Part shown: positions 26,182 through 57,630 of the stretch, one piece after another
Position numbering within the stretch: position 1 is the first letter of the stretch
Layout of the letters: every line of letters begins with the position of its first letter
NCBI RefSeq assembly: GCF_037975245.1
Contig: NC_092561.1
Location: forward strand, 248,001 to 312,000
Direction: 5' to 3'
Length of the DNA: 64,000 nucleotides
Source of the DNA: Apostichopus japonicus
Lineage: Eukaryota > Echinodermata > Holothuroidea > Aspidochirotida > Stichopodidae
Notes under the pieces: model-generated
What the model saw: only the letters and a program-made list of their open reading frames with translations
What the model was told of the DNA's origin: nothing
Database searches by the model: none
Made by a program: the position numbers and the translations under genes

Positions 26182-26263
26182 ATGAAGCATTTCTTAGGTC
26201 ACGTGACACTTTCATCTTATTCGCTCTTGTGCCTATGTTTTCTTCTAAGTGTCTTTACAATTG
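26182..26263 (+). CDS. Gene A exon 1: signal peptide
   Basis: ATG followed by a 27-residue leader with a hydrophobic core (SLLCLCFLLSVFTI), ending in phase 1 at donor GTAAGT. The last base G plus GG of exon 2 encode Gly28. A typical secretory signal. Confidence 0.8.
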
Positions 26264-29200
26264 GTAAGTTCTCTGTATGTATACATATTTCTTTCTATCA
26301 TGGTATAATTAATATATACGTATCTATGGCGTTATGGTTTGCTATAAAAGTTATATTGAATTTGTGTGTAATTTAAGCTGTTTCATCCATGTTTCTCCTA
26401 ACTTCAAGGCAGGTCAACTGAGCAATTCTGCCATAAAGGAACGTATATTGGAGTTATTGTTGCTAATTTTTAGGCTCACAGCTGTTACTTAATAATATAA
26501 AATAAATTTAAATGACTATAACAGCGATGAAAGCTATCATTCTGACAATTCTTGAGCCTGAAATAGTAGGCCTACCTATCAAAGTAAACCGGGTGGTTTG
26601 TGAGCACCTGCTTCTTACTTCTAAGTCGTTGTAATTGTATGTACTTCTTCATAGCATGTTCAACTAACAGGTACAAAATAAATAACAAACAAGTTGCCGA
26701 ATCGACAAAAAAATAAAAAGTAATACAGCTTTCAATTTGGCAAACGTTTGAACTTTTAAAGTCCAATTAAGATATAATTAATGAAACTCAGGTAAAAGAT
26801 TAGTAGACTATACTCAGAGATGTTTCTACAATCGTTCATCTTTTCTGTTCTGTGTGATAAACATGTAATATTCCAAAGAAATATCTCTCAAGGAAATGTG
26901 TTTGCATGTTCATGAAGTTTATATGGGATTTCGCAGTCAATATGACGACAAAGCATGCTATTGAGTATTGTTATTAACTGAAAGTATTTCTCATAATTTT
27001 GGTATATAAAAGTGTATGTTGCGTTGCATGACTGACGTAGAGAGGGTATAATTCCATTTGAGCTGCACTGTAGGGCAGTGTCTTCAGGCAGGAAAGCCGA
27101 TATTCAAATGAAGTTGGAAAATATGTAATATGGAGCTATAAAAAACAGACAGTTACTTTCAATAGATGGAAATATGAAAAATAAAACCCACCGCCTCATA
27201 TGTTTTGACAAACGAAGGTTTGATAAGGTTGATTTGAACGATAATAAAATAGATAGTCGTTACATATCTCTGAGTAAACAAATCTTTGATCTTAAACACA
27301 CACAAAAAACTTTACGCCTCGTTACGTATATGTTACTTCACATTTTTAATTAGTTTACTTCATACAGCGGAATATGTTTCTGTTAATCGTTCTAAAATAA
27401 AACATTAAACAAATAGCAGACAAAATCGTAAGCTGTGAAATCACTACACAGCCTACTATGCGTTTATGAGATAACAGGCGATCCATATGGCTATATTAAA
27501 GACATTCGATATGCGACTAAGGTAAACGAGTGCATCCTTATGCAAGGTGGGTCGGGCTTGCATGATCTTACTACAATTGCATTCAACCACTTCTCACCAA
27601 ACTTTCAAAATGGCACAAAATACGATTTTTTGACGTTGATTTAAGATATTCTTGAGTGTCATGGAAAGCACAGAAAGTCATGCATGCTCACTGCACTACG
27701 AACAATGACTATGATGATCTCTAACAACGTTTTCCCCAAAGGTTTTTTTTTTTTCAACTGGAATCACCGGTCAACTTCTTTCCTTATGGTGTTCATTGAA
27801 GGTATCAATGGCCTCAATCGTCCAACTTTCTTCATTACATATACTGACTCTTCTTCATCATCTGTTTGCAACATATTTAAACAGATCGCCTGTTTTAGCA
27901 TTTTTACAAAGGGAAGTTGGGAAAACTCCATTGATATGGATGGAGTATGCTACCTCTAGCAACCATTTTCTGTAAATATCAAATACACAACCCCAAATTG
28001 TCTCGCGTTCCTAGTGGGTATTTTTGGGTCGCAAATGAAATACTGACGAGACTTTTCGTATAGCCTGCGAAATATGCAAACACGAACGAAATATTTGGAC
28101 GTTATGTTTATAGGCCATATATGAAACAGATATTTCTTTGTAAAGCAATAACGAAAAACCTAATTTAAACGAACAAGGACAGTTTGAGTACAATGAGATT
28201 TGACCCATAAAATTCAGAAGTACAAGTCCTATGCTTTCTGAACTGGGCAATGTAATACTTTTCGTTTTGTTCTTATGGGTTGAGAATACATAAAATGAAC
28301 CATTTTCTGTATTTAAATGTACATTTATGTTCAAGAACTATACATCCTAAGGTTTTAACTAAGGTTTTCTCACTACCATAGACGGTATTCTACCCGACCC
28401 CGCAGCCAGCCTTATATCTGTTCCATTGCTCTGACAACAAATCCAGCTGTTATTGTTAACTTTCTTTATTTTGACCCCAAAATGACAAAAAGTTGATTTT
28501 GAGCTATCAATTACTAGAACTATGTACAATAACAACCCTATGTCTGCAGGTGTTTAGTTTTTCCATGGATTTACAATCATAACACGCTTAGAAAAAAAGC
28601 AGCTGGTGTTACCCCTGAAAAATGTCACATGTTATTGCGTAATTTACTCTTGCAAATATGAACACATTAGGGCATTACAAGCCTCAGCAATGAAATATAT
28701 ATATATATATATATATATTTATATATATTTATATATAATTTAAATCGAAGTGAGTTGGAAAATCCATAGCAGTGAAAAAACTTCCAGCCTCCACCGGGAT
28801 TCGAACCCGGGCATCCCACTTTATATGCGGACACCCTAACCACTAGGCTATGGATTCTGATTGTATGTCCAGAGGTTCGAAACCGGCAAGGAAGGTCGTA
28901 ATTCCACTGTAGGCATTTGTCACCTGTATCGAACAATACTAGTTCTGTTTTGGTGACATATTTGCCTTACTCTAGAGATCAAACATGATGCTAACCAACT
29001 CGAAATCATTTGTGATTCCTAAAGCCGGATCTCAAAAGAGATACTATGAACAGACTTTGTAAATGAAATAGAGGTAAAAGACAAAGGCAAATGAATATAC
29101 ATATATATTCGAAATCGTAGAAAGTTGGAAAATCCAGAATAGTGAAAAACTTCCAGCCTCCACTCCACCGGGATTCGAACCCGGGACTTCCGCTTTATAT

Positions 29201-57010: not shown

Positions 57011-57309
57011 CTGTAAAATCTTGACAACTGATGCAATTTCTGGTTGGTAAATGCTAGGATGAGAGCTAAACACAAGTTATGGTTATGCTCTGGCATTAGA
57101 TCATGAACTTCTGCATCTAACAATTTCAAAATAGTTGCTTTTGATGAAATTACATCATGTGTGGAGAGGATGTTAGGGGTAATGTACATACTATGCTCTC
57201 TTTGCATGGAAACCGAAGAAACCAGTTAACAATATGCGTTAGCGTATTGGTATGTGTGCTTGTGTGACATTCGGTACAGTTGGGCAACATTGCACTGCTT
57301 TGATTCGAC

Positions 57310-57630
57310 CTATAGGTGGGGTAAGATGACGGCACATGAACAACAAGACTGAATGTAGACCCAGTAATCACCGGTCACTCCGTTTTTGACGCCATGGACG
57401 TTAATCCAGCTGTACTTTTGCTCGCATAAAGAGCTAATAGGTGAATTATAAGCAGGGCCGAGTCCTAGACATTCTGCACCTGGTTCAGGATCACACTCTG
57501 TCACCCAAAAGTATTTCGGAGGATCAATGTGCACTTTGACACCATGTTCGTCTAGGAGATATGCGTACCGATTGAAAACGCTCGTTGATGAACATGCTCT
57601 CCTAGGGATGTATCTGCTTGCACTTGGCCT
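57310..57630 (-). CDS. Spätzle/neurotrophin-like ligand gene C, terminal exon
   Basis: Minus-strand exon of 321 nt after acceptor TTTGTTTTTCTTTAG, starting in phase 0 like the corresponding exons of A and B, and ending in a stop after Leu-Pro-His-Leu. It encodes 106 residues: a basic start with a dibasic Arg-Arg site one residue before Ala-Cys, then seven cysteines at exon residues 13, 46, 54, 69, 96, 97 and 99 (spacing 33, 8, 15, 27, 1, 2). Conserved FWVTEC and QSCCSCAV are shared with A and B. As in B, no intron interrupts the knot. A secreted ligand is expected, but the signal peptide exon was not found. Confidence 0.83.
   Translation of the reverse strand, partial: RPSASRYIPRRACSSTSVFNRYAYLLDEHGVKVHIDPPKYFWVTECDPEPGAECLGLGPAYNSPISSLCEQKYSWINVHGVKNGVTGDYWVYIQSCCSCAVILPHL

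Follow-up and report, generated by a model that had tools for sequence, protein, structure and literature searches.

Alternative last exons as the likely source of two cystine-knot ligands from one neurotrophin-type gene of a sea cucumber

Introduction

Neurotrophins with an extra cysteine were described in 2009 from the sea urchin (Sp-NT2) and the acorn worm (NTb) (Wilson 2009, PMC2772990). As far as the available text of that paper describes it, this ambulacrarian NT2 group (Sp-NT2 and the acorn worm NTa and NTb) has a precursor encoded by several exons; in Sp-NT2 and NTb the extra cysteine is beside the fifth knot cysteine, and in Sp-NT2 a Pro precedes it. Here, we analyze a locus of the sea cucumber Apostichopus japonicus that compares closely with this group. 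The window, a stretch of 64,000 nucleotides (C1:248001-312000 of the 671.6 Mb genome), holds three seven-cysteine knots, which we call A, B, and C. They very likely belong to two genes and not three, gene A on the forward strand and gene BC on the reverse strand, both of the ambulacrarian NT2 type, with knots B and C encoded by alternative last exons of gene BC.

Both genes have the extra cysteine of the NT2 group and a precursor split over several exons (six for gene A and four per gene BC message), and A and B have the Pro of Sp-NT2 as well; the likeness to Sp-NT2 is drawn from its description and not from a direct letter comparison. Unlike the NT2 group as the available text of that paper presents it (PMC2772990), the locus probably has alternative last exons, and knot C is without the Pro and without a Trp that A and B carry. 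According to the same source, splicing of Drosophila spz varies the stretch ahead of the knot, whereas splicing of gene BC would vary the knot itself. Arthropod Spaetzle (PF16077) resembles the products of this locus in its Cys-Cys-x-Cys end and knot-bearing pro-protein, and A exceeds the Pfam cut-off for that family; however, the knots are without the Spaetzle aromatic site, and A and B have the neurotrophin Trp. The canonical deuterostome neurotrophin (Sp-NT type; NGF, BDNF, and NT-3) shares the six-cysteine knot, the fold, the pro-domain, and the basic cleavage site, but it is encoded by a single coding exon and has six knot cysteines with no Cys-Cys.

The calcitonin/CGRP gene has one set of 5' exons and alternative last exons, each of which codes for a different mature signal. 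Gene BC would be similar in its shared 5' exons and its alternative last exons giving different mature signals, but the products of the calcitonin/CGRP gene are short peptides, and those of gene BC would be whole cystine-knot growth-factor domains. One pro-domain serving two knots that are about 30% identical was not met in the open-access literature, in a search only partly aimed at splicing or isoforms.

Three cystine knots

The differences between successive cysteine positions are 33/7/11/30/1/2 in knot A, 34/7/11/29/1/2 in knot B, and 33/8/15/27/1/2 in knot C. A first-pass annotation, made from the sequence alone, had given the same spacings, and the recount was identical for all three, so the presence of three seven-cysteine knots in the window is secure. 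Each has the six knot cysteines in the order C1..C2..C3..C4..C5-x-C6 within a secreted pro-protein, signal and pro-domain exons having been found for A and for BC. A search with a four-sequence profile gave eight proteins, including crinoid P0005 (Anneissia japonica), hemichordate P0006 (Glandiceps talaboti), A. japonicus P0007 and P0008, and P0009, the second Holothuria protein after P0002. The extra cysteine adjoining the fifth knot cysteine is present in all three knots and also in P0002, P0005, P0006, and P0009. All three knots have the Cys-Cys-x-Cys end, and two of them have a Pro ahead of it.

The seven-cysteine pattern in a single frame was not found in any of 100 windows of 64 kb each simulated with a first-order Markov model, and the real window has two (B and C); knot A is outside this count because it is split by an intron. 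Its coding sequence is divided between two exons (39222-39394 and 42373-42511), and B and C have one exon each. The knots are related to each other, with BLASTP E values of 5.9e-16 for A and B, 3.1e-8 for A and C, and 9.2e-11 for B and C. Their pairwise identity is 29-32% (29% for B versus C), which agrees with the strong divergence noted in the first-pass annotation. A PDB sequence search gave only chance-level matches for knot C and nothing for knot B, and a protein database search with the mature part of A alone gave no match.

The first-pass annotation was thus right that Spaetzle/neurotrophin-type seven-cysteine ligands are clustered in an animal that is not an arthropod. It had also considered a clustered family of this kind notable if found in an animal other than an arthropod. 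However, sea urchin and acorn worm neurotrophins have the same extra cysteine; Sp-NT2 and NTb have been in print since 2009 (PMC2772990), and such ligands are therefore not new to non-arthropods.

Probable alternative last exons of gene BC

Knot C is encoded by an exon at 57310..57630 (-), which opens with the Arg codon AGG at C1:305630 and is represented in P0008 and Holothuria P0009. Knot B is encoded by an exon at 47459..47794 (-), which opens with the Arg codon CGA at C1:295794 and is represented in P0007. Both open in phase 0 and end with a stop codon of their own. The signal and pro-domain exons of the gene sit 5.7-22.8 kb past the window end on the same strand: the signal exon E1 at C1:334768-334699 (window-equivalent 86768-86699), the pro-domain exon E2 at C1:318469-318414 (70469-70414), and the last pro-domain exon E3 at C1:317970-317734 (69970-69734). 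E3 ends with ...GATGTATCCAAA followed by a gtaagt donor, in phase 0 following a Lys. Since Lys ends the pro-domain and Arg opens either last exon, a KR site is built across both junctions. The distance from E3 to exon C is 12.1 kb, and from E3 to exon B, with exon C skipped, 21.9 kb. Polyadenylation-like signals follow both exons, AATAAA 300 nt past the stop of exon C, and ATTAAA 176 nt and AATAAA 824 nt past the stop of exon B. The arrangement is that of alternative last exons, in which a single set of shared 5' exons faces two terminal exons of compatible phase.

E1-E3 joined to exon B give P0007 in full, a protein named 'isoform X1', and E1-E3 joined to exon C give P0008 from SSLRR onward except for one Glu/Gln difference. 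The pro-domains of P0007 (knot B) and P0008 (knot C) agree at 97 of 98 residues. Two pro-domains as old as knots B and C would hardly match so closely, which argues for one gene. P0008 and Holothuria P0009 both join a C-type knot to the shared type of pro-domain; between the two sea cucumber genera the C knots are 65% identical, and the signal and pro-domains agree at 80 of 117 residues. A genome search with P0007, in which nine candidates were scored, gave one place for residues 41-122. A local search with seven proteins over the 147.9 kb around the cluster (E limit 0.05) recovered three knots and a single copy of every shared exon of gene BC, and within the window the P0007 pro-domain had only chance-level rows among the matches listed. 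The evidence thus gives two genes where three separate ones had been annotated, B and C sharing one set of upstream exons. Gene A and gene BC are convergent.

Affinity with neurotrophins and Spaetzle

Against the Pfam curated cut-off of 27 bits, which applies to both Spaetzle (PF16077) and NGF, the knots score 40.1 (A), 25.6 (B), and 18.6 (C) bits on Spaetzle and 24.7, 23.3, and 21.1 bits on NGF. The profile search that had been proposed as a check of the three domains therefore succeeds for A, which alone exceeds the Spaetzle cut-off, and fails for B and C, which are below both. It is worth noting that the NGF cut-off is a detection threshold rather than a trait. Among the relatives, Holothuria P0002 (31.9) and hemichordate P0006 (28.5) are over the Spaetzle cut-off; on NGF, P0002 (26.9), P0005 (15.2), and P0009 (21.6) are below and P0006 (36.1) is above. 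When the family profile is compared with solved structures, neurotrophins are found at 1.4e-12 and Spaetzle at 0.002. In superposition, the predicted models of B and C fit neurotrophins best, which answers the call for a structural check with a neurotrophin fold. As a profile, the family resembles neurotrophins more than Spaetzle, though A alone favours Pfam Spaetzle.

Diagnostic residues were compared by mapping Wilson's site numbers, through our own alignments, onto the available text of PMC2772990. Neurotrophins proper are marked by Trp at site 130 and Ile or Val at site 133. Site 130 is Trp in A and B and Asp in C. Site 133 is Ile in A and B and Val in C, so that C agrees with neurotrophins at one of the two sites and none of the three has the Spaetzle aromatic residue (Phe/Tyr). 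The Pro of site 136 is present in A, B, and P0002 and absent from C, P0009, P0005, and P0006. At site 13, where the same text places a Pro in all Spaetzle (PMC2772990), the comparison is less direct: B has a Pro nine residues past the first knot cysteine, as in Spaetzle 4bv4, although MAFFT leaves the two unaligned, and its equivalent is Leu in A and Tyr in C.

A canonical single-exon neurotrophin lies in the same genome about 6.2 Mb away, at C1:6484919-6485681 (+) (locus L012); it scores 94.9 bits on Pfam NGF and has a run of Asp after the knot. A genome scan with Pfam Spaetzle and NGF yielded weak matches at six other places (C6 twice, C8, C10, C19, and C23), and reading of the surrounding DNA in three frames of the matched strand revealed no knot in them.

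Alternative explanations

It could be argued that the locus holds three separate ligand genes, B having its own, unrecognised signal and pro-domain exons. The 9.5 kb between C and B leave enough room for short exons, and a weak match to the gene A signal exon is found there at 49699-49592 (-) (E 0.09), a look-alike that we rejected. We regard this explanation as very improbable, as the stretch between C and B has no pro-domain match (E limit 0.05), a single copy of the pro-domain was found, and in P0007 exon B follows E1-E3 exactly in frame. The sole remaining escape is a very recent copy of the pro-domain only, beyond 148 kb and missed by the P0007 genome search. Another explanation is that exon B or C is a relic and just one last exon is used, the other being kept or annotated by error. 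Both joins are predictions, and Holothuria yielded the C form only. This too is unlikely: both exons are open and retain all seven cysteines, a same-phase acceptor, and Arg as the first codon; each has a polyadenylation-like signal within 300 nt of its stop; the C join is found in two species; and at 38% identity B matches the hemichordate protein as well as A does, which would hardly be expected of a dead exon. Several observations nevertheless weigh against alternative last exons in gene BC. Both the E3-B and the E3-C join are database gene models. The first residues of P0008 match the intron preceding E2; its 5' end thus appears to have been modelled wrongly, and the same could apply to its 3' join. 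No Holothuria B-type protein was among the eight proteins of the profile search.

The family assignment has its own rival, namely that the knots belong to genuine Spaetzle proteins, Toll receptor ligands that echinoderms have retained or regained. The Pfam Spaetzle cut-off is passed by A, P0002, and P0006, the last of which also scores 36.1 on NGF, and the shared Cys-Cys-x-Cys end, with the preceding Pro in two knots, points the same way. There is little chance that this is correct, since the aromatic residue is missing from the Spaetzle site in all three knots, A and B have the neurotrophin Trp, the profile and the models are nearer to neurotrophins, and the same marks are already described for ambulacrarian neurotrophins in the text of PMC2772990. 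Assignment to the NT2 type must still reckon with the uneven Pfam scores of the single knots (A and, slightly, B higher on Spaetzle, C on NGF) and with knot C, which is without the Trp and Pro that mark A and B. The tree, built from ten sequences with Sp-NT2 not among them, is also unfavourable: A, B, and C do not form one group in it, NT-3/NGF is placed beside B and C (56/82), B, C, and Holothuria C are grouped weakly (71/46), and a grouping of B with A and Holothuria A is not rejected (p-AU 0.2). From family resemblance alone, the receptor is most likely of the neurotrophin type (Trk/p75) and not Toll. PF16920 was considered as a Trk domain and rejected; it is an LRR C-terminal model, and its one weak match is uninformative on Trk.

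Proposed mechanism and significance

We propose that the signal exon and the two pro-domain exons of gene BC are spliced to last exon C or to last exon B, both messages being made, and that the ligand released, about 105-110 residues long when mature, depends on the last exon used. After secretion, a furin-type protease would cut at the KR site, and the ligand would dimerize via the knot surface and the seventh cysteine, which, beside knot cysteine 5, may link two chains as in Spaetzle. The ligands would act on neurotrophin-type receptors, and B and C may differ in receptor preference.

One echinoderm gene thus probably makes two neurotrophin-type factors, with a constant signal and pro-domain, one rebuilt processing site, and two knots about 30% identical, the split between B and C being older than that between Apostichopus and Holothuria. 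If so, splicing switches the identity of the ligand, and cells that use both last exons could produce mixed dimers linked by the seventh cysteine. The same genome carries a canonical neurotrophin as well, and the group to which the animal belongs is noted for regeneration. Neurotrophin diversity has been attributed to gene and genome duplication, and the vertebrate forms come from a single coding exon, as the available text of PMC2772990 states; exchange of a whole ligand through splicing would add a further way for the family to diversify. The locus also raises a testable question, namely what role the Spaetzle-like seventh cysteine has in animals other than arthropods and whether such ligands are recognised by Trk, p75, or Toll.

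Organization of gene A

Gene A has six exons, with all introns GT-AG, and a 250-residue product consisting of a signal peptide, a pro-domain, GKR, and the knot. Exon 1 (26182..26263, +) carries the start codon and signal peptide, and the Holothuria orthologue P0002 starts alike. Exons 2 (29945..29980, +), 3 (34319..34417, +), and 4 (37230..37453, +) are within P0001; exon 3 encodes pro-domain (DNGMLYLILH) conserved in crinoid P0005 and hemichordate P0006, and exon 4 encodes pro-domain conserved in P0002, P0005, and P0006. The KR cleavage site and knot cysteines 1-3 are in exon 5 (39222..39394, +), and knot cysteines 4-7 (CCAC) and the stop are in exon 6 (42373..42511, +). An alternative first exon of isoform X2 (18775..18832, +, donor gtgggt) encodes MGRDDEEEDKEEDWKFSGK, with no obvious signal peptide; when it is joined to exons 2-6, the 242-residue product is identical to P0001. 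The earliest polyadenylation-like signals lie 417-421 nt past the stop.

A search with the gene A precursor gave four matches: P0001 and P0003 of A. japonicus, P0002 of Holothuria leucospilota (61%), and P0004, an unnamed fragment. Pro-domain identity is 82/120 aligned residues with Holothuria, 41/96 with the crinoid, and 34/67 with the hemichordate; by these comparisons the gene A pro-domain is old, conserved out to crinoid and hemichordate. It does not clearly resemble the gene BC pro-domain (9/30).

P0003 is named 'nerve growth factor-like protein'; its reading frame continues past exon 4 into intron 4 (ORF 37175-37570, +), so that it has no knot. It is probably a truncated model of gene A, and this read-through was rejected as the true end of the gene because P0001 and P0002 splice to exon 5. 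In the available text of PMC8772784, a body-length QTL (quantitative trait locus) of A. japonicus on LG5 (marker lm2222), with an LOD of 4.47 and accounting for 14.8% of variance, carries the annotation 'nerve growth factor-like protein'. P0003, which has the gene A pro-domain, bears the same name; the match is of names only.

Other elements in the window

A Ty3/gypsy-type LTR (long terminal repeat) retroelement occupies 6235-14509 (-), with gag and its CCHC zinc knuckle at 12417-13901, protease-RT-RNase H (RT, reverse transcriptase) at 9829-12606, and integrase at 9087-9863. A further ORF of the element, 7819-8451, contains a C2H2 zinc finger. Its terminal-repeat pieces are 95% and 99% alike and contain 34-nt minirepeats. 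In intron 3 of gene A, 34800-36300 (+) reads like a degenerate reverse transcriptase, and a 110-aa frame within it had no Pfam match. Intron 2 of gene A holds two tRNA-like sequences, 28786-28857 and 29164-29228 (-), with similar surroundings, which are perhaps heads of tRNA-derived SINEs (short interspersed elements). Tandem repeats include a 92-nt unit at 4333-4976 (seven copies, 100% matches), (ATCC) x190 at 23942-24701, which is open in several frames, and a 97-nt minisatellite at 59058-60766 (17.6 copies, 93% matches) in the gene BC intron that separates exon C from the pro-domain exons.
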